From a bacterium (GTDB lineage: Bacteria; JALSQH01), in NCBI GenBank assembly GCA_026985515.1, contig JALSQH010000223.1, positions 1 to 26,880 of the forward strand: a DNA stretch of 26,880 bases. The letters are read 5' to 3'. The translations under genes and the position numbers were made by a program. The notes under the pieces are model-generated. The model was not told where the DNA came from. It made no database searches and worked only from the letters and a program-made list of their open reading frames with translations. Each line of letters starts with the position of its first letter. Positions within the stretch are counted from its first letter, which is position 1. Shown one piece after another: positions 936 through 15,519 of this stretch.

Positions 936-2194
936 AGAAAAGACTTGGGACAATACTGCTTGAAGAGGGACTTATTGATAAGGCTCAGCTTGAGGATGCT
1001 TTGAGAATTCAGAGAGAAAGAGGCGGCAGGCTTGGAAGTATTTTAATTCAACTGGGTTATATCGATGCTGATACCCTTGCCAGGATATTGAAGGAACAGC
1101 TGAATATAGAAACCGTTTCCCCAGAAGAGATAGAGCATCTCGATTACAGTGTGATCAATTCTATACCCAGGGACCTTGTGGAGGAATATCAGGTTTTACC
1201 GGTTAGGGTAAAGGATGGTGAAATTGAAGTGGCCATGCTTGATCCCAGAAATACTCGGGTTCTGTCGGAGTTGGGCTTTTTCCTTGATAAGGAGGTAGTC
1301 CCGCTTATAATACCGGAAGGTTTGTTGTACAGGGCTCTCAAAAAGTACTACAATCTTGATGTTGAACCGGAAGAGGAAATTATTGAGGAAGTGGTCGCTT
1401 CCGGAGTATCTTCTCATCAGGAAGTCGCGGCGCCGCCTGAATATGAAGAAGTGGTGGAAGAAGTTATTTCTCCTCCTTCAGAAGCTAAAAGATCCGAAGT
1501 CTCAGAAGCTGGGCCTGCTACTGCAGAATCTGAACCGGAAGTTGTGGAGGAGGTTAAATTTGAAGAAGTTTCCCGGCCAGAAGAAATTAAAGTGTCAGAT
1601 GGAGTGACTGAGGAGGAGGTAGTGCCTCCTCCGGTAGAAGAGATTTCTCCTCCAGCGGAAAGTGTGTATGAGGAGTGGACGGAAACTCCTGTAAAGGTAG
1701 AAGAGGTAACTGAAGATACTCTTCGATCCGCCAGAAGTATGGATGACCTTGTTTATTATCTTTCCAGGCTTCTTGAAAAAAAGAGTGCCAGACATGTTAT
1801 TTTTAAGGTTCAAAAAGGGGTGGCTTTTGGATGGGTTGCAAAGGGAGAGGATATTTCCCCGGGCTACATAGATTTAATGATGATTCCTCTGTGTGCTCCA
1901 TCTATGTTTAAAACCTCAGATGAAACAGGAGAGACCTTTTTTGGTCCACCACCAATGGACAATCCAGTTGTGGAGAGATTTATGAAGATTCTGAATTCTC
2001 ATCTTGAGCCTCCCAGAAATTTTATTCTTACTCCAGTTAAAGTTCAGGGTAAAACGGTTTTGTTCATCTATCTTGATAACGGTAAAGGGAAAGGGATTGA
2101 TGATCTTAAGCTTCTGCCAGAGATCAACAGAATCGCCTCCACACTCTCTGAAGCAATAGAGAGAATTATTGCCAGGAAGAAAAGGGGAAGTTAG
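932..2194 (+). CDS. MshEN-domain protein (predicted c-di-GMP receptor) lacking an ATPase domain
   Basis: 420 aa. Residues 4-27 and 33-56 are two copies of the 24-residue motif RLGxxLxxxGxIxxxxLxxxLxxQ separated by a 5-residue spacer, which is the signature of the cyclic-di-GMP-binding MshEN (GspE N-terminal) domain. The rest of that domain runs to about residue 145 (PRDLVEEYQVLPVRVKDGEI, then AMLDPRN). Residues about 150-265 are a Glu/Val/Pro-rich linker. Residues about 270-415 form a compact mixed alpha/beta domain ending in an ILPEINRIAS-like helix (LLPEINRIASTLSEAIERI) that recalls GAF-like folds, but I cannot assign it. No Walker A or B box of GspE/PilB ATPases is present, so this is a stand-alone sensor or adaptor. 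It starts inside the upstream TPR gene (4-nt overlap), with GGGAGGTGGG as its Shine-Dalgarno region. Its stop overlaps the stop of the convergent lipoprotein gene. Similar ATPase-less MshEN proteins are known from Deltaproteobacteria. Confidence 0.8.
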   Translation: MKKRLGTILLEEGLIDKAQLEDALRIQRERGGRLGSILIQLGYIDADTLARILKEQLNIETVSPEEIEHLDYSVINSIPRDLVEEYQVLPVRVKDGEIEVAMLDPRNTRVLSELGFFLDKEVVPLIIPEGLLYRALKKYYNLDVEPEEEIIEEVVASGVSSHQEVAAPPEYEEVVEEVISPPSEAKRSEVSEAGPATAESEPEVVEEVKFEEVSRPEEIKVSDGVTEEEVVPPPVEEISPPAESVYEEWTETPVKVEEVTEDTLRSARSMDDLVYYLSRLLEKKSARHVIFKVQKGVAFGWVAKGEDISPGYIDLMMIPLCAPSMFKTSDETGETFFGPPPMDNPVVERFMKILNSHLEPPRNFILTPVKVQGKTVLFIYLDNGKGKGIDDLKLLPEINRIASTLSEAIERIIARKKRGS

Positions 2195-4323
2195 CCTCCT
2201 CCCATAAAAATGAATGGAAAGATAACAGTAACGGATCCACCCATTGGTCTTGGAAATGTCCAGTTTTTAACCTTGAAAAGAATACAGCTTTCCACTTCCA
2301 TGTTGTTAAGGGTGGATTCTTCAATGCTGGCAGCTGATACATGTCCATCTGAACCAATGGTGAATTTCACTTCGATTTTACCTTCAAGATTGGGATTTAT
2401 CTTGAGCTGTTTTTCGTAGCAGTATCTCACTTCACCGTAATGTGAGGCAATAACTGTTGATATTACCTTCGGGTCAAGCCTTCCACTTTTCTGCTCGCTG
2501 GAGAGTTTGATCTGGGCCTCAATCTTTTTTATGTTCTTTTTCAAACTCACCTTTTTAACTTCCCCCACGTTAATATCAATATCCACATTTCTCACTTTTC
2601 CTCTTCTTCTTACCCCTGCAATAATAATTTCCTGCTTTTTAACCTGGCTGTTCTGTTCGGAGAGGAGCTTATCAATGTCACCCAGATTGATTCCTCCACC
2701 AATTGAAGTTCCAAAGAAGCTTTTTTTCCTGGTTTTTCTTATGTTTGAAGAAATCGTTTTTCTTTTTTCTGATCTGGAACTACTCTCTTTTTCAGGGGTA
2801 CCCGGTGCAGATTTTTTTATCACTTCATTTTTGCTTGCTGGTATTCTTTCCGGGGTTTTCCCCTCAACGGGAAGAGACTGTGAAATTATAGCTACTTTTT
2901 TCGTCTTTTCAGGTGTCGAAAGTTCACCAGTGGAGACGGTTTTCTTCTGATTTACCATCACTTTCCTGTTGCTTGCCAGCTCTTTTTTTGAACCTTCTCC
3001 GGGTGGTAAAGATTTATTTCCAGTTTTTTCAGCACTGGCCTCCTCTTTGCTCAGATTTTTTTCAGTGGAAACTTTTTCTTTTCCGGGAAGGTTAACAGTT
3101 TCCGGTTTTTTTTCTTCAACACTAATGGAAGCCTCAACTTCCCCCTTTTCCATCTTCTCAGTGGTAATTTCTGGCTCAGGTGGAGGAGTCTGTGGAGTTA
3201 TGCTTTCAATTTTTGGAGAGGAAATTTTCATTGCCACCTGGGATTTGAGTTTTGCATAGAGATTTTTGCATATTGAGCTTGTTTCCCTTTCCATTTCAAA
3301 ACCATATATATCCTGAGAACCTCCTCTGCAGCACATTGAAAGTTTTTTATAAGCTTCATCATTATTACCCATATACCAGTAAAGCTCCCCAATTTTGCAT
3401 CTAACGTGCTTATATGCAGGATCAATTGCTTCCACATTTGAGTACATATACAGGGCGAGTTTAAGCGTACTGGATGAATTGGTACTCTTTCCTATGCTTT
3501 CATAGAGATATCCGAGATCAAAGAATGCTTCTTTCTGAACAGATACCTCTCCAGATTTACTTGCCTTCAGTGCAGCCAGCCTGAAGTAATTTGTAGCGTC
3601 GCTGATTCTTCCAAGCCACCAGTAAAGCCTTGCGAGATTGAGGTAGTAAACTGCTTCATCGGGAGATAGATTTATTGCTTTGAGATAGTAATTTTCTGCC
3701 ATCGACGCCTGATTATCAGAACTATCATAGTTACCTCTTGACCATGCGATTTTTGATAATTTTTCAGAAATAAGAGCCAGTCTTTCATATATTTCTGCCT
3801 TGAAAGTTCTTATTTCTATTTCGCTTTTCCCTTTTTGCTTGCAGGTGAGAGCCTTTTTGTAGAAGGCAATGGCTGCAGGATATCTCTCCATTATTTCAAA
3901 GATTGAGCCTATTATTTTGAATATTTCAGGAATGCATAATTTTTCCTCTTCCGCCTGCGTGTATGCCTTTTCAAGTTCTGTTCGGGCAGAATCGTAATCA
4001 CCTGTTCTATAATAAATCAATCCAAGATAGTAGTGTGGAAGGTAGGATTTTGACCCGAGATTAATGGCATTTTCAAGTTCATCTTTAGCTTCGTCCCACC
4101 TGTTCTGATAGTAGTAAACAATACCGAGATAAGTGTGTATCTCTGGATTGTCAGGATAGCTTATTTCATTTCGCAGTAATATTTGTTCTGCTCTTTTGAG
4201 GTCTTCTATGCCTCCACTTTTGATGAGATTTTGTGCCCTGAATAGAGAACTTTTGAGCTGAAAGGAGGCACACCCCGCTACCCATAGTGCTATAAAAAAC
4301 AGTACAAAGTTTCTTTTCATCAT
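2191..4323 (-). CDS. TPR lipoprotein with AgmX/PglI-type C-terminal domain
   Basis: 710 aa. The N-terminus is a lipoprotein signal (hydrophobic 6-15, lipobox VAGC with Cys18; the +2 residue is Ala, so outer-membrane sorting is likely by the E. coli rule). Residues about 25-350 are TPR repeats. Residues about 370-520 are a low-complexity Lys/Glu/Ser/Pro linker. Residues 614-710 match the AgmX/PglI (myxobacterial 'SS tail') domain, a TonB-C-like fold: CYEKQLKINP, then G.I.VKF.I..DG.V, ESC, and W.FPRPMGG.V.V.FPF. Its two characteristic cysteines are Cys635 and Cys680. AgmX belongs to the adventurous gliding machinery of Myxococcus; PglI is related. Two ATGs are adjacent (4321-4323 and 4318-4320), with AAAGGGAAG upstream. 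It probably has its own promoter in the gap shared with tldD. A structural or coupling role between envelope layers is inferred. Confidence 0.82.
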   Translation of the reverse strand: MMKRNFVLFFIALWVAGCASFQLKSSLFRAQNLIKSGGIEDLKRAEQILLRNEISYPDNPEIHTYLGIVYYYQNRWDEAKDELENAINLGSKSYLPHYYLGLIYYRTGDYDSARTELEKAYTQAEEEKLCIPEIFKIIGSIFEIMERYPAAIAFYKKALTCKQKGKSEIEIRTFKAEIYERLALISEKLSKIAWSRGNYDSSDNQASMAENYYLKAINLSPDEAVYYLNLARLYWWLGRISDATNYFRLAALKASKSGEVSVQKEAFFDLGYLYESIGKSTNSSSTLKLALYMYSNVEAIDPAYKHVRCKIGELYWYMGNNDEAYKKLSMCCRGGSQDIYGFEMERETSSICKNLYAKLKSQVAMKISSPKIESITPQTPPPEPEITTEKMEKGEVEASISVEEKKPETVNLPGKEKVSTEKNLSKEEASAEKTGNKSLPPGEGSKKELASNRKVMVNQKKTVSTGELSTPEKTKKVAIISQSLPVEGKTPERIPASKNEVIKKSAPGTPEKESSSRSEKRKTISSNIRKTRKKSFFGTSIGGGINLGDIDKLLSEQNSQVKKQEIIIAGVRRRGKVRNVDIDINVGEVKKVSLKKNIKKIEAQIKLSSEQKSGRLDPKVISTVIASHYGEVRYCYEKQLKINPNLEGKIEVKFTIGSDGHVSAASIEESTLNNMEVESCILFKVKNWTFPRPMGGSVTVIFPFIFMGGG

Positions 4324-8069: not shown

Positions 8070-8098
8070 TTGACTTCTCCTACATTCTATCTTAAAAT
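8070..8098 (+). promoter_or_regulatory. Probable sigma70-type promoter of the lipoprotein-smc-ftsY unit
   Basis: TTGACT (8070-8075), 17-nt spacer, TAAAAT (8093-8098): five of six matches in each box with ideal spacing. It is 34 nt upstream of the lipoprotein ATG. It is the best promoter-like match I found in the window. Confidence 0.6.
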
Positions 8099-8132: not shown

Positions 8133-10982
8133 ATGAGGAAAGTGGGTGTGGTATTTGTGTTAATTTTCATAACCTTTCTTGTCTCCTGCAGTGGTGCTGG
8201 TGGAACGAATACAGGAGTGGGAGTTTCTCATGCTCTTATTATTGAGAACAGTGATCAGTTGATAGGTGGTCCCGTTGCTGAAGGAGAGGAGGGGGATATC
8301 CTCATCTACAATAATCTGTCGAGATTTATCATTAAGGTAAGCGATTATCCCTATCCGGTGCCTCTCAGAGGGATGGTTGTTGATGGGGATATTAGAAGAT
8401 TTCCTGGAGAAAGAGGTGAGGATATCATACCAGGTGTGATTTTTTATTATCTCCCCGGTCATTTTGTGAGACCCGCACAGATTGTTGAGTCTTTACCAGA
8501 AATATCTATCCAGGATGATGGTAATTTTTCAGGAGTGGCTGCAGTAAAAGTAACAGGTAAAGATAGATTTTATCCTGATAGTGTAACAGTTTATCCTGAA
8601 AGTATTTCATCCGCAATAAAAAGAGATTTACCTCTTGAGTTCACAGTGGATTACTTTCTTCCACCTGATTCTCCCTGCCTGAGAGTGCTTGTTACTGTTA
8701 AGAATAAAGCTGAAAATGACATCACAATTTATCCTGGAATTCTCCTTCCCCCAGGTCCCGGAAAATCCTTTGCTGGAAATTATGGTTTTACAGGGTACAG
8801 GGTTCCACAGATTATTGATGGGATTTCATACATTGCAAAGGAATTTCAGGGAATAACATTTGGAGTTTATTCTGGTGGAATGGAGAAGGAGCCCTTATCT
8901 CCTGCTTTTGCTCTCACTGAGAACTCCGGGTATTCTTTACTCACAAAGAAGTCTCCATCTGATGTGGTCCCCGCCGGAGAAAGGAGGGCATACTCCTTTG
9001 CTGTCTGCGTTGTTAAAGGATACACTGGGGAACTTTACTCTTTTCTGACAAAAATGGAAGGTGTTGATAGAACCACTGTTTCAGGTTATACATGTTACAC
9101 TTCCGGGAATGATAAAGTTGTGCAGAGTGGGGGAACTTCCAGAAAAGTTTGTGTTACAGAAGAGGAAAGTGAGGAAAATGGGAAAACTTCAAATTCACCC
9201 ATTGATGGTGTGGATATATTTCTTTTAAATAACAGTGGTGAGGTTCTTGCCCACACCCGGAGCGGCAACGATTCGGAAGTTTACTATCAGGCACTTGAAA
9301 CACTTGACAAAACCAGATTATACAGGAAAAGTGAGTGGAAAGGTAAGTATAAATTCACTCTCCCGGGAAATAGGTACAGAATCTGGGCTGTGAGAAATGG
9401 TTTTGAACTTGCAGATACAAATTACCTCAACATTTTTCCTCCTCCCGGTACCCCCGCTGATGAAGGAATTATTGTTGAGCATGCAGATTTTGTTTTTCCG
9501 TGGCCCGTGACACTTGATGTTTTTGCGAAACTTGTCCCTGCTTCACCCACTTCTGCCAGGTTGATTCTGAAGGGAGAGAATCTTTATCCTGTGACAATAA
9601 CAAAGTATCTTGATAGATTCGGATACTCTTACCGGATAAGTGGTGAAAATCTCCGGGTTTTTTACATTGGTCCCGATGGGTATTTGCCAGTTGAGCTTTC
9701 CCCGGGTAAATATACCTATTTTGCTGATAAGGGTATCTTCTATAACACAGTTACAGGGAGCGTGAATATCATTTCAGGTAGTAAGACCCTTCTTTTAAAG
9801 TTCAAGAGAGTTGTCGATTCTCTTAATTATGTTGCAACAGATCCTTTCATAGAGAACCTGTCATGGGGAAACGAATTTGATGAGGAAAGCAGGACAGAAT
9901 CAGTAATTTCTTCCTCCATAGATGGAGGTGTCATTTTTGATTACAACATTTCTCCTGTGACATTTTCCACTGAGCTCCCTGTCCTGTATGGTGATTTCCT
10001 GTACACGCCTTATGGAAATTTCTTTGCATTTCCTCTCTTTGAAGGAGAATTATCTCCAGATTTTATGAGCAATCCAGAGTCCCTCTTTAAACACAGGTCT
10101 TACACTGTTCTTTATGATCTCTCAGATTCATCCTCATACTTTGTAAGGGAAGGTGTGCATATAGACTTCAATACCGGTAAGATTAAGCCCGATGATTTCA
10201 AGAACGATTTTGACATGATGCAGATTTTACCTGTTAAGGATTTGAAAAAGGTTATTCTTGAATGGTTCAGATTACTTCAGGTTTCTCCAGATGGTAAGGA
10301 TGAAAATTTCATTTTTCATCCACTTATTGGAGGTTCCATGAGTTCCTCACCTCTCTTTTCACCTCCTGGACTGGTTGAAACATATATTTACAGTGGTCCT
10401 ACAACTTCTGCAACCCTCGTTAACCAGGAGGAATGCAGGAAATTTAAGGAACTTGACGAAGATATTAATGATTCCCTCTGCATGATGTGGAAGGGGAACT
10501 CGGTGGTAGGAAGGTTTGTTTTCTTCTCATTTTATGTGACGACCTCGGCAGGCAAAAGGGGATTTCCAGGAGAATACGTTGCCGCTTCCTCCGGTGACAG
10601 GATTTATCTCAACTTAACAATTGAAAGTCCAGCGTGGGCTAAATTTGATAAGATTTACATCTTTGATGGGTTACAGGATTATGGATACAGTGTAACTGAT
10701 CCTTTCAGTAAAGCTGTAACTGTGGCTGTTTCTCCTCAAATAGTTCAGGTAGGGTATGAGAATTCAATGAAAAGATATGAATGGAGCGGGGTTATTGAAT
10801 ATCCATTTGCCCTTAACAGTAATGCCGATTCCTGGGTAGTGATCGCTGTAGTGGGAGATAATCCGGCATCCTATTATCCATCTTTAAAACCCTTTGCAAT
10901 ATCCAACCCCGTTTTTATTGATACAGATCTTCAGAGGGGTTACAATCCACCCTGTCCTGGAATGGCCTGTCCCAGCCGGTAG
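8133..10982 (+). CDS. Large lipoprotein, CehA/McbA-like architecture with no recognisable PHP metal site
   Basis: 949 aa. Lipoprotein signal: hydrophobic residues 4-17 and lipobox LVSC with Cys19 (+2 Ser). Its order of segments recalls CehA/McbA-family metallohydrolases: an N-terminal beta domain (GDILIYNNLSRFIIK, VTGKD), a carboxypeptidase-regulatory-like region near 340-420, a middle region, and a C-terminal beta module (PAWAKFDKIYIFDG and PFAISNPVFIDTD at 920-932). In the middle, YVATDPF (566-572), YGNFFAFPL (627-635), FDMMQIL (693-699) and EWFRLL (710-715) sit where PHP domains have VATDH, YGHFNAFPL, FDAIEVLNG and DWFALL. The metal motifs (HxH, TDH, SDSH) are not seen. This alignment is from memory, so the assignment is tentative. 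Catalysis is doubtful; a surface binding or structural role is possible. AAAGGGGG is about 9 nt before the ATG. smc starts 2 nt after the stop. Confidence 0.72.
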   Translation: MRKVGVVFVLIFITFLVSCSGAGGTNTGVGVSHALIIENSDQLIGGPVAEGEEGDILIYNNLSRFIIKVSDYPYPVPLRGMVVDGDIRRFPGERGEDIIPGVIFYYLPGHFVRPAQIVESLPEISIQDDGNFSGVAAVKVTGKDRFYPDSVTVYPESISSAIKRDLPLEFTVDYFLPPDSPCLRVLVTVKNKAENDITIYPGILLPPGPGKSFAGNYGFTGYRVPQIIDGISYIAKEFQGITFGVYSGGMEKEPLSPAFALTENSGYSLLTKKSPSDVVPAGERRAYSFAVCVVKGYTGELYSFLTKMEGVDRTTVSGYTCYTSGNDKVVQSGGTSRKVCVTEEESEENGKTSNSPIDGVDIFLLNNSGEVLAHTRSGNDSEVYYQALETLDKTRLYRKSEWKGKYKFTLPGNRYRIWAVRNGFELADTNYLNIFPPPGTPADEGIIVEHADFVFPWPVTLDVFAKLVPASPTSARLILKGENLYPVTITKYLDRFGYSYRISGENLRVFYIGPDGYLPVELSPGKYTYFADKGIFYNTVTGSVNIISGSKTLLLKFKRVVDSLNYVATDPFIENLSWGNEFDEESRTESVISSSIDGGVIFDYNISPVTFSTELPVLYGDFLYTPYGNFFAFPLFEGELSPDFMSNPESLFKHRSYTVLYDLSDSSSYFVREGVHIDFNTGKIKPDDFKNDFDMMQILPVKDLKKVILEWFRLLQVSPDGKDENFIFHPLIGGSMSSSPLFSPPGLVETYIYSGPTTSATLVNQEECRKFKELDEDINDSLCMMWKGNSVVGRFVFFSFYVTTSAGKRGFPGEYVAASSGDRIYLNLTIESPAWAKFDKIYIFDGLQDYGYSVTDPFSKAVTVAVSPQIVQVGYENSMKRYEWSGVIEYPFALNSNADSWVVIAVVGDNPASYYPSLKPFAISNPVFIDTDLQRGYNPPCPGMACPSR

Positions 10983-10984
10983 AG

Positions 10985-13900
10985 ATGAGACTGACAAGAT
11001 TGTTAATAGACGGTTTTAAATCTTTTGCTGATCGCACTGAGATTATATTTGAACCAGGTATCACTGCCATAGTGGGTCCCAATGGCAGTGGTAAGAGTAA
11101 CATTGTGGATGCAATCAAGTGGTTGATGGGTGAGAGGAGTGTGAAAAATCTTAGGGGAGGAGTAAGTGATGACCTCATATTTGCCGGCAGCAAGGAAAGA
11201 AAAAGGTCCAATATTGCCATTGTTTCCATGGTGATTGAGGATGGTGAGGGAATTGAAGTTCCAGGTAAGGGACTCTACAGAAGCGTAGAAGTGAAACGGG
11301 TGTTCACAAGGGGTGAGAGGAGTGTCTTTTACATAAACAATGTAAGGGCATTTGAGAGGGAAGTTGAGCAATTCTTTTCGTCATCGGTGAGGTTATCAAG
11401 AAGGTATGCAATTATTGAGCAGAGTGCAGTAGAGGACCTTGCAACCATGACCTCAAGGGATCTTGCAAGGGTAATTGGTGATGCAGCGGACATTGGTGTG
11501 TTTCTTGCAAATAAGGTGAACGCTCAGGCAGAACTGGCTGAGGCGGAAAGCGAACTTGAAAAGATAGAACCTGTTTTGGAAGAGTGGAAGGAGAGAGCGA
11601 GGAGTCTTGCAAGAGAGGTGGAATTGAAGAAAAGGTATCAGGAACTTTCAATTGAACTCAGGAGATTGAAAGTAGGAGTTCTTCTGGAGGAGTATCGAGC
11701 GGTTAAGGGAAATCTGGAAAGGGAGGAGAAGTTTGTTAATGAACTCAGAGGGGAAAAAGATAATCTGAAACTTCTCTATGAAACTCTCCTGGAGGAAAAT
11801 GAAGAGCTTGAAATGAAATTTCGTGAAGTTATCAGAGAGTATGAAGAAGTTGAGGAACAACTTAAAGATGTCAATAACGCGCTTGTTCAGAGGACCACAG
11901 GGGAGAAGCTTGTTGAATCAAAATTAGATACTATTGAAAAAGAGCTTCGAACTACATCTGAAGCCATTGAGAGAATTGCTTCTTCAATTGAAAAAAAGAT
12001 AAGAGATGGGAATAGGATCTCTTCAGAGATAGATGATCTTGGAAAATTTATTGAAAACAGAGAGAAGGAATTAGCAGCGAAAAGGAAAATCCTCGAAAAT
12101 TTGAAAAATGAGATAGATGCAATAGATACAGCAAAGGAAAGAATGCTCGAGTCAATCTATGAGGTGAAGAGGGAGATCGCCCGTCTTGAGGATACTCTTT
12201 ATGGCATGAAAGAGCGAGAGGGGCAATTGAGAAAAGAGAAGAAGAGAAAAGAAGATAAACTCTCGTCTCTGAAGAGTGAAAGGGAAGAATTTAAAAACAG
12301 AATAGAGAAACTTAAACAAGATATTGAGGAGGCAGAAGCAGAAAGGGAGAATCTGGAGGAAGAACTTGGAGTTCTTAAAAAGGAGATAGAGTCGGTTAGA
12401 AAGATTTTGGCTGAAAGGGAAAAGGAGTATTCTGAAAAAGAAATTACCCTCAGAAAAATTGAACTTGAGATTGAGAGGATAAAAAGTGAGGTGGATAATT
12501 ATCAGGATCTCGGTGAGAGTACCGCTGAATTCATAAAATTTGCACGTGATAAGGGATTTGAAGTGATACCAGTGGCAGATTTATTCCCAGGAGAGGAAGA
12601 AAGAGATATTACCTCTTTTTTTGATGTTTCAGATGCAGTGGTGGTCAGGAACATTTCACCATCATTGCTTGTGGATTGGATGAACAGAGATGGAGGCAGA
12701 GTTAAAATTATACAGAATGAAAATGATTTCCTCAGGAGTGAAAGGAATTTCAAACATTTTCAGACAGTGGAAGAGTTTCTGGAGAGCGACGAGGATGGGT
12801 ACACCTCAACGGGCTTCCTTAGAAAGGATGGAATAATATTTCTTGGAGTAAATATTGAAAGCAGTGTGAGGCCTTTCAATCTACGTAGAAGAATAAAAGA
12901 GCTTGAAGTGGAATTGAATCGGGTGAAGAAGGAGCACACTGTTTTGAAGGGAGAGGTAGAAGATTTGAGAGAGAGGCTGGAAAAGAAGATAAAGTCTTAC
13001 GAGAAAACAAAGGAAATGCTGGATACACAAATTCAATCATTAACTGAAATGAGAAGTGCACTGGAGAGGTATGAAGGGAAACTGAACGATGTATCTGCTG
13101 AACTTGAGGCTGTTGAATTCGAAATGGGTGAAATAGAGGAGGAAATAGAGAAGATAGGGAGGAAAAAACTGGAAATTGAGGGGAAACTTGGAAAGGAAAA
13201 GGAAAAACTTGTGGCTCACCGGTCAGACCTTGAGGTTTTAAATGCTGAATTTGAAAAAAAGGAAAAGGAATTCAAAAAGTTGTCTGAAGAGTACAACGAG
13301 GAAAGAATTGCAATTGAAAGAAAGAAGGTTGAGTTAAAAAATTTAAAGGAAAAATATAACGAAACCATGAGGACTCTTGATAGGGATAAAAGAAGGAAGG
13401 AGGAACTTGTAAAAGAAGTTGAGAAACTTGAGAATCAGAGGAGGGAGCTCGAGAAAAAGAAAGAAGAAACAACTCTGGAGATCAGAAAACTGATCAAAAA
13501 GAGGGATGGCATAACTGCAGAAGTGGAAAATCTCAGAGAGAAAAGAAATTCAATAGAGGATGAGCTTAAGAAGAAAAAATCAAAATTAAACAGAGTGCAG
13601 AAGAAGTTGAGTGCTGTGGAGAAGGAACTTGAGGAAAAAAGAAGCAGGCTGGAGGAATTGAATATTTCCCTGAATTCTGTACTTACCAGAATCCAGGATG
13701 AAAGTGGTAAACTGATTGGTGAGGTAATAGATGCTCCTGAGTATCAGCTGGAGATTGAGAAAAATCTGGCTTTAAAGAGAATTGAGGAAATAGAAAGAGA
13801 AATTGAATCACTTGGACCCATCAACAATAAGGCTCCAGATGAGTATGAAAAACTCATGAAGGAAATATCTGAACTGGAAGAAAAGAGAAGAGATGTTGTT

Positions 13901-14401
13901 GCTGCCATTGAGAAACATCAGATGACCATTCAGGAGGTGGAAAGTCAGGCCAGAAAGAAATTTTTCGATGTGATGAAGGAGCTTGAAAAGAATTTCAATG
14001 ACCTTTACTGGTATCTGACCGGTGGAAGTGCCAATTTCATTGCCAGTGAGGCTTCCTCTCTGGAAAATATTGGCGTGGACATAAAACTTTTTCTTCCAGA
14101 CAAAAATATAAGAAGTATTTTTTCCCTTTCGGGGGGAGAAAAGGCTCTCATGTCTATAGCCCTTATCCTGTCAATTTTTAAATACAAAAAGGCACCCTTC
14201 TGCATTCTTGATGAGGTGGATGCACCCCTCGATGCGGCAAATACAGAGAGATTTGGTATTCTTCTCAGAGAACTGTCGAAACAAACGCAATTCATTGTGG
14301 TGACCCACAACCACAAAACCATGGAAATGGCTGATCGTCTTTACGGAGTTTCTATGGAAGATGGAGCTTCAAAGGTTGTATCTGTTTCCCTGAAAAGTTA
14401 A
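10985..14401 (+). CDS. smc: Chromosome segregation ATPase SMC
   Basis: 1138 aa, near the usual 1150-1200. Head: Walker A GPNGSGKS (31-38), followed by IKWLMGE. C-terminal half-head: ABC signature LSGGEKA (from 1048), Walker B FCILDEVDAPLD with Asp1076 and Glu1077, and a D-loop. Two very long Lys/Glu-rich coiled coils (about 165-510 and 640-985) flank a hinge at about 515-635. The hinge (VIPVADLFPGEE, DAVVVRN, GGRVKII) is recognisable but divergent, and the conserved glycine-rich dimer motif is poor. The protein forms the ring of condensin with ScpA/ScpB, which are not in the window. The start is 2 nt after the lipoprotein stop with no good Shine-Dalgarno, suggesting translational coupling. 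ftsY follows after 14 nt, a widespread smc-ftsY arrangement. Confidence 0.96.
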   Translation: MRLTRLLIDGFKSFADRTEIIFEPGITAIVGPNGSGKSNIVDAIKWLMGERSVKNLRGGVSDDLIFAGSKERKRSNIAIVSMVIEDGEGIEVPGKGLYRSVEVKRVFTRGERSVFYINNVRAFEREVEQFFSSSVRLSRRYAIIEQSAVEDLATMTSRDLARVIGDAADIGVFLANKVNAQAELAEAESELEKIEPVLEEWKERARSLAREVELKKRYQELSIELRRLKVGVLLEEYRAVKGNLEREEKFVNELRGEKDNLKLLYETLLEENEELEMKFREVIREYEEVEEQLKDVNNALVQRTTGEKLVESKLDTIEKELRTTSEAIERIASSIEKKIRDGNRISSEIDDLGKFIENREKELAAKRKILENLKNEIDAIDTAKERMLESIYEVKREIARLEDTLYGMKEREGQLRKEKKRKEDKLSSLKSEREEFKNRIEKLKQDIEEAEAERENLEEELGVLKKEIESVRKILAEREKEYSEKEITLRKIELEIERIKSEVDNYQDLGESTAEFIKFARDKGFEVIPVADLFPGEEERDITSFFDVSDAVVVRNISPSLLVDWMNRDGGRVKIIQNENDFLRSERNFKHFQTVEEFLESDEDGYTSTGFLRKDGIIFLGVNIESSVRPFNLRRRIKELEVELNRVKKEHTVLKGEVEDLRERLEKKIKSYEKTKEMLDTQIQSLTEMRSALERYEGKLNDVSAELEAVEFEMGEIEEEIEKIGRKKLEIEGKLGKEKEKLVAHRSDLEVLNAEFEKKEKEFKKLSEEYNEERIAIERKKVELKNLKEKYNETMRTLDRDKRRKEELVKEVEKLENQRRELEKKKEETTLEIRKLIKKRDGITAEVENLREKRNSIEDELKKKKSKLNRVQKKLSAVEKELEEKRSRLEELNISLNSVLTRIQDESGKLIGEVIDAPEYQLEIEKNLALKRIEEIEREIESLGPINNKAPDEYEKLMKEISELEEKRRDVVAAIEKHQMTIQEVESQARKKFFDVMKELEKNFNDLYWYLTGGSANFIASEASSLENIGVDIKLFLPDKNIRSIFSLSGGEKALMSIALILSIFKYKKAPFCILDEVDAPLDAANTERFGILLRELSKQTQFIVVTHNHKTMEMADRLYGVSMEDGASKVVSVSLKS

Positions 14402-14415
14402 TACTGGAGGTAAGT

Positions 14416-15519
14416 GTGAAGGAACTTAATTTTCTTGCAGGTGATCCCCTTTACCTTTATTCGGCGGCAGGGGTACTTGTTCTTATTTTAATCCTGATTT
14501 TGATTTTTCTGAGAGTCAGGAGAAAAAAGAAGAAGTTACCTGAAGAACAGAAGGCTGAATTGGAACAACCTGTTACCGAGGTTGAAGAGCGCAGGGTTGA
14601 AGAGAAAGTTGAAGAGGTAAAGCCACGAACAATTAAGGAAGGGCTGGAAAAAACGAGAAGCTCCTTTTTGAGCAGGTTAAACCAGCTTCTCAGGGGAGAA
14701 AAAATTTCTCCTGAAATTTATGAGGAGCTCGAAGCTATTCTCATCACCGCTGATTTTGGAGTGAAAACAACTCAAAAACTCCTTTCCCGTGTTAGAGTTG
14801 AGGCAAAAGAGCGGGGAATAAGTGACCCTGCAGCCCTGAAGAACCTGCTGAAAGAGAAGATCCTTGAAATTTTAAAGTCAGTTCCTCCCCATTCTCTTCC
14901 CGATGTGAAACCTCTTGTGATAATGGTGGTGGGCGTCAATGGTACGGGGAAGACGACCTCAATAGGGAAGCTCGGGAAATACTTCATTGATCAGGGGAAA
15001 AGGGTTGTCTTCGCAGCTGGAGATACCTTCAGAGCTGCTGCCATTGAACAACTTGAAATATGGGCTGAAAGGGTGGGTGCCAGGATTGTTAAGCATCAGG
15101 AAGGAAGTGATGCAGCGGCTGTGTTTTATGATGCCATTGAATCTGCAATCCATCGAGGTGATGATGTTGTGATAGGTGATACTGCAGGGAGACTCCACAC
15201 AAAGGTTAACCTGATGGATGAACTCAGGAAAGTGAAAAGAGTGTCCTCCAGAGCAATGGAGGGGGCTCCTCATGAAATATGGCTTGTTATTGATGCTGTA
15301 ACGGGTCAGAATGCACTGAGGCAGGCTCAGGAGTTCAACAAAACTCTGGGACTTACCGGCATAATTCTCACCAAACTTGATGGTACCGCCAAAGGAGGTA
15401 TTGTGGTGGCAATTGCCGATGAACTCAAGATTCCCATTCTCTATGTGGGGGTTGGAGAGGGGATCGGGGATCTTAAACCCTTTTCCCCTGAAGAATTTGT
15501 GGAAGGATTATTTGAATGA
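14416..15519 (+). CDS. ftsY: Signal recognition particle receptor FtsY
   Basis: 367 aa, beginning with GTG; CTGGAGG lies 5 nt upstream. Residues about 12-34 are a strong transmembrane helix (AAGVLVLILILILIFL) followed by a basic stretch RVRRKKKK, so this receptor is membrane-anchored. A short charged linker leads to the NG domain: four-helix N domain about 75-160, then G1 GVNGTGKTT (173-181), GDTFRAAAIEQL, G3 DTAGRLH (255-261), G4 TKLDGTAKGG (319-328) and GVGEGIGDL at the end. It is the GTPase that docks SRP-ribosome complexes at the inner membrane via Ffh. It is last in the lipoprotein-smc-ftsY unit and ends 4 nt from the stop of convergent rpoZ. Confidence 0.97.
   Translation: MKELNFLAGDPLYLYSAAGVLVLILILILIFLRVRRKKKKLPEEQKAELEQPVTEVEERRVEEKVEEVKPRTIKEGLEKTRSSFLSRLNQLLRGEKISPEIYEELEAILITADFGVKTTQKLLSRVRVEAKERGISDPAALKNLLKEKILEILKSVPPHSLPDVKPLVIMVVGVNGTGKTTSIGKLGKYFIDQGKRVVFAAGDTFRAAAIEQLEIWAERVGARIVKHQEGSDAAAVFYDAIESAIHRGDDVVIGDTAGRLHTKVNLMDELRKVKRVSSRAMEGAPHEIWLVIDAVTGQNALRQAQEFNKTLGLTGIILTKLDGTAKGGIVVAIADELKIPILYVGVGEGIGDLKPFSPEEFVEGLFE

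Follow-up and report, generated by a model that had tools for sequence, protein, structure and literature searches.

A predicted lipoprotein encoded ahead of smc and ftsY appears to be a CehA/McbA homologue that has lost the PHP metal site

The window, i.e. the whole stretch of 26,880 nucleotides of bacterial DNA analysed here, carries on its forward strand an open reading frame of 949 codons (8133–10982) that contains no internal stops and is therefore regarded as real. Its product is a lipoprotein, and the gene forms with smc and ftsY a nearly gapless run over 8133–15519, in which the adjacency to smc is kept in two genera. On the 5' side lie genes for a phosphoribosyltransferase of the QRPTase/NAPRTase type and a PAP2 phosphatase. 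An orthologue of 961 residues (sequence identity, 45%) is encoded in one other genome of the phylum, where its gene likewise stands between those for a phosphoribosyltransferase and smc, separated by a few bases; a search of the genome contigs with a two-sequence profile returned this known orthologue as the sole match. The genome of the window protein contains no second CehA/McbA protein, the other matches being beta-domain repeats and other PHP proteins, so that the activity is not supplied by another copy and an active paralogue as a partner is ruled out. Elsewhere in the window, the minus-strand gene at 2191–4323 encodes what we take to be a TPR protein of 710 residues with a lipobox-like N-terminus, its C-terminal part presumably resembling an AgmX/TonB-like domain. 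The features of the locus and the domains of the lipoprotein are as follows.

8070..8098, + strand: promoter-like site TTGACT-17-TAAAAT, 5' of the lipoprotein gene, with 10/12 matches to the consensus; the regional excess of such sites over chance is modest
8133..10982, + strand: whole gene for the 949-residue lipoprotein, a long-form CehA/McbA metallohydrolase homologue
8133..8189, + strand: signal peptide and lipobox LVSC (residues 1–19), recognised from the sequence and present in the orthologue too
8232..9062, + strand: N-terminal domain (residues 34–310), common to long-form CehA/McbA proteins; its wider-family profile resembles the YidC periplasmic domain
9120..9572, + strand: divergent middle region (residues 330–480), where relatives have a CarboxypepD_reg-like (transthyretin-like) domain; the evidence is weak
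9645..9818, + strand: beta domain directly preceding the PHP region (residues 505–562)
9819..10112, + strand: first half of the former PHP domain (residues 563–660), with the lowest orthologue conservation (27%)
10113..10412, + strand: second half of the former PHP domain (residues 661–760)
10500..10979, + strand: C-terminal beta domain (residues 790–949), with the family signature SNPVFID at its end
10985..14401, + strand: smc, starting 2 bases past the lipoprotein stop codon; adjacency kept in the genome of the orthologue
14416..15519, + strand: ftsY (SRP54-type GTPase), the next gene in the same direction

By pattern, the window protein and the orthologue both begin with a lipoprotein signal peptide and lipobox (RKVGVVFVLIFITFLVSC in the window protein), the box being L16-V-S-C19 with Cys19 as the expected lipidation residue. 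All eight non-lipid cysteines (8/8) are common to the two proteins, which fits an exported protein with disulfides. The order of the domains, namely the lipid anchor, N-terminal domain, beta domains, PHP region, and C-terminal domain, is that of the multidomain CehA/McbA hydrolases. The middle region (residues 330–480), at the place of which the relatives match CarboxypepD_reg, gave a weak match to NOMO_3rd (E-value, 0.094) and weak profile scores of 28.8–32.6, with shuffles reaching about 25. The former PHP region is of near-normal length, with 180 residues as compared with 193–294 in intact proteins.

Searches of Pfam, NCBIfam, and the PDB with the window protein alone yielded no useful match, and none to a PHP or CehA entry; PF02811 was unmatched, and NF038032 was matched neither by the window protein at E-values up to 10 nor by the orthologue. 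In a BLASTP genome search, a 1093-residue protein from genome G091, which scores 138 bits against the NCBIfam CehA/McbA metallohydrolase model (cut-off, 80), was aligned with the N-terminal domain at 29% identity (E-value, 7e-15) and, in a second alignment (E-value, 2e-8), with residues 481–605, running continuously from the preceding beta domain across the HxH and TDH motifs. With an HMM built from 20 intact relatives, the window protein scored 169.9 bits over its whole length (E-value, 4e-51), the maximum for 1000 shuffles being 1.4 bits, and a whole-length profile–profile alignment against intact CehA/McbA by hhalign gave an E-value of 5e-44 over 789 columns. The PHP stretch alone (residues 564–760) was aligned with the intact profile over 185 columns with a score of 55.0 (E-value, 7e-7), whereas 40 column shuffles of the same stretch averaged 14.6 and did not exceed 19.5; residues 590–760 alone scored 51. 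Since residues 570–668 are unrecognised by the intact-family HMM in HMMER, the homology in this part rests on the profile–profile and BLASTP alignments. No intact relative was found in the viral contigs scanned.

The sequence-only reading had proposed that the N-terminus and the segments 566–572, 627–635, 693–715, and 920–932 line up in order with CehA/McbA proteins, and the profile–profile comparison that it recommended bears this out, both over the whole length and for the PHP stretch alone. Segment 566–572 corresponds to strand 1; MGHFNGWPL of CehA/McbA is found as YGNFFAFPL at 627–635, FDGIEVLNG...DWFNLL as FDMMQILPV...EWFRLL at 693–715, and TNPIWID as SNPVFID at 920–932. Altogether, the sequence comparisons support the descent of the window lipoprotein from CehA/McbA-type metal-dependent hydrolases.

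The nine metal ligands of PHP domains are H, H, D/H, H, E, H, C/H, D/N, and H (Barros et al. 2013, PMC3666897), and His313, His315, His453, and His495 are needed for hydrolysis in CehA (review, PMC8292978). All nine positions could be located in the CehA/McbA alignment, in which the intact relatives (n = 25) have 9/9 ligands. Canonical ligands number 0/9 in the window protein and 0/9 in the orthologue. The window protein has F572, E574, G579, Y604, F622, N629, D662, M736, and S738 at these positions, the register at G579 and D662, with no His nearby, being less certain than at the others; the orthologue has F, T, V, N, V, T, D, F, and N, and the two proteins differ at seven of the nine. The former motifs are located as follows.

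9846..9854, + strand: former HxH (ligands 1 and 2), now F572-I573-E574
9936..9944, + strand: former TDH (its His being ligand 4), now F602-D603-Y604
9996..10019, + strand: former Glu (ligand 5), now F622, and former His of GH (ligand 6), now N629
10116..10118, + strand: former His of NHP (ligand 7), now about D662; the local alignment is less certain
10338..10346, + strand: former Asp and His of SDSH (ligands 8 and 9), now M736-S737-S738

The counterpart of SDSH as a whole is S735-M736-S737-S738. That HxH, TDH, and SDSH are gone agrees with the sequence-only reading, which had, however, placed the replacement of TDH at TDP (569–571); this tripeptide precedes HxH, D570 being the Asp of GDxHxH, and the HxH pair therefore corresponds to F572/E574. 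Intact ligands at shifted positions, which that reading had named as evidence to the contrary, were not found. In the whole PHP region, H729 is the only His common to both orthologues, which excludes a PHP site re-formed elsewhere in the region. The loss of the PHP metal site in the window protein is thus supported at the sequence level, and the earlier suggestion of a pseudoenzyme is now backed by statistics for both the CehA/McbA descent and the metal-site loss, with the 25 intact relatives for comparison. As judged from its sequence, the lipoprotein is a pseudoenzyme of the CehA/McbA lineage that lies outside the metallohydrolase family by the enzymatic definition of the latter.

The pattern of conservation also differs from that of intact proteins. 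Between the window protein and its orthologue, i.e. in one orthologue pair, the N-terminal domain is 53% identical, residues 563–660 are 27%, residues 661–760 45%, and the C-terminal domain 55% identical. The equivalent of 563–660 is the most conserved segment (52–78%) in the closer intact pairs (L069–L071, L062–L063, L068–L065, and L077–L078), and is mid-ranking but never the lowest in three more distant ones. Such an inversion is as the loss of catalysis predicts, and speaks against a new active site in 563–660. In this orthologue pair, constraint is concentrated on the two end domains and is weakest in the half that formerly bound the metal.

Degenerate homologues are also found in two further phyla. 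In the phylum of G013, 36 of 40 genomes, and all 20 near-complete ones (20/20), encode a homologue with the architecture of the window protein; those aligned (n = 30, L091–L120) have 0–3 of the nine ligands left, with frequent Arg/Lys at ligand positions 2, 5, 7, and 9 (26/30 at ligand 5 and 22/30 at ligand 7), and constitute their own tree branch with full support. Unlike in the window protein, their cleft half is conserved as well as the rest of the protein. The gene neighbourhoods in this phylum are unconserved outside groups of close relatives and offer no clue to function. In the phylum of G403, a homologue of the same architecture occurs in 7/7 genomes with 1–4 of the nine ligands left, the losses being of varying extent; L198 still has the HxH together with the Asp and Glu. 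The three proteins of this phylum that were scanned exceed the cut-off of NF038032, whereas the window protein has no match to it. L156, L157, and L160 (G403, G237, and G099) keep only 1–2 of the nine ligands yet score 131, 104, and 96 bits, respectively, where the NF038032 cut-off is 80; automatic annotation would therefore name them metallohydrolases. The best tree requires three ligand losses. A single ancestral loss for all three groups is disfavoured though not rejected (p-AU, 0.098), and one for the window protein and the G013 phylum is not rejected (p-AU, 0.30); the HxH still present in L198 argues that the loss in the G403 phylum, at least, was separate.

When 386 genomes were searched with the N-terminal domain only, with no selection for the state of the PHP domain, this domain was found in 27, being combined with an intact PHP domain in 14, a degenerate one in 8, and a calcineurin-like phosphoesterase instead in 5. 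In L009, L153, L154, L155, and L158, the N-terminal and CarboxypepD_reg-like domains are followed by the calcineurin-like phosphoesterase, with no PHP domain. By sequence, the N-terminal domain has no confident relative in Pfam or the PDB. At the profile level, the N-termini of the G013 phylum matched YidC periplasmic domains with a score of 61 over 215 columns (shuffle maximum, 18), and those of the whole family set scored 57 (shuffle maximum across these two profiles, 16–18); the intact set alone gave a weak score of 33, and the profile of the window pair alone gave no meaningful match. The wider-family N-terminal domain thus resembles the periplasmic (P1) domain of YidC over about 215 columns, while the insertase part of YidC is absent from the lipoprotein. 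Because P1, which is similar to galactose mutarotase, held an extended ligand in its cleft in a crystal (review, PMC8669966), a binding role of the N-terminal domain may be considered a lead, not a result.

The window protein is probably an exported lipoprotein pseudoenzyme with an inert PHP core, the end domains of which bind an envelope polymer or a partner. In such a protein, the PHP region would be retained as an inert structural core, the hydrophobic side chains of F572, F622, M736, and Y604 at the places of the ligands would fill the cleft, and the N- and C-terminal domains would engage the polymer or partner of the cell envelope. The PHP region may have been kept for binding or structure, as the sequence-only reading put it. 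The in-order alignment of all segments and the near-normal length suggest that the barrel scaffold is retained. AlphaFold2 with a two-sequence alignment gave mean pLDDT values of 29.8 for the full length and 29.6 for residues 556–800, and with values of about 30 it is the alignment from which we infer the barrel.

Several other explanations deserve consideration. The PHP region might have turned into a catalytic site built from other residues and with a different chemistry, the protein still being an enzyme, and the polar residues D570, D597, N605, D662, H729, and S735 common to both orthologues would suit such a site; with the half containing most of the cleft residues being the least conserved segment (27%) and the orthologues differing at seven of nine former ligand positions, we regard this as unlikely. 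It is also rather doubtful that the former cleft serves as a metal-free pocket through which the PHP region itself binds a ligand as a receptor. The homologues of the G013 phylum lend this idea some substance, because their Arg/Lys residues at ligand positions 5 and 7 (26/30 and 22/30) resemble the Arg substitutions described for variant PHP domains and their cleft half is conserved, but the window protein has no Arg/Lys at its ligand positions, with four hydrophobic residues instead, and the region is poorly conserved.

Replacement of the PHP domain by an unrelated stretch of like size, with only the flanking domains being homologous, would explain why 570–668 is missed by the intact-family HMM and why Pfam and NCBIfam give no PHP or CehA match. 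It is nevertheless very improbable in view of the alignment of 564–760 alone (185 columns; E-value, 7e-7; score, 55 versus a shuffle maximum of 19.5), the score of 51 for 590–760, and the BLASTP alignment, which passes from the preceding domain across HxH and TDH without a break. The total loss of the ligands might even point to a decaying or misassembled gene without function, which is scarcely credible for open frames of 949 and 961 residues that persist in two genera, being 45% identical overall and 53–55% identical in the end domains, with all eight Cys kept and adjacency to smc conserved.

Compared with the long-form CehA/McbA proteins of NF038032, which have the N-terminal and CarboxypepD_reg-like domains, the window lipoprotein has its domains in the same order and is homologous throughout, but none of the nine PHP ligands remains in it and it matches neither NF038032 nor PF02811. 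A precedent is provided by the PHP domain of E. coli DNA polymerase III, which has lost metal ligands while its structural role persists (PMC3666897), stabilising the polymerase; in that different protein context, 5/9 positions are changed as compared with 9/9 in the window protein. Arg is the common replacement there (PMC3666897), and several ligand positions in the G013 phylum have Arg/Lys, whereas hydrophobic and small polar residues are found in the window protein, an exported, non-polymerase addition to the known cases of PHP metal-site loss. The losses across two other phyla suggest that the architecture can do without its enzymatic portion, the remainder being retained, and their occurrence in most of the examined genomes of those phyla points to a selected, non-enzymatic role. 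More tentatively, and short of an even chance in our estimate, the long-form CehA/McbA proteins may be primarily envelope-binding or architectural modules with a dispensable hydrolase core. This core would have been shut down by independent events in two phyla at least, and most simply in three, the silent state then being maintained phylum-wide, and the N-terminal module is elsewhere joined to a calcineurin-like phosphoesterase; the window protein, a conserved pseudoenzyme at the head of the smc–ftsY cluster, would then be the most extreme case. The CehA/McbA-type long-form design is widespread but unstudied, and, because the ligand state can be read from the sequence, a function of the scaffold alone would be testable through natural intact versus dead homologues.
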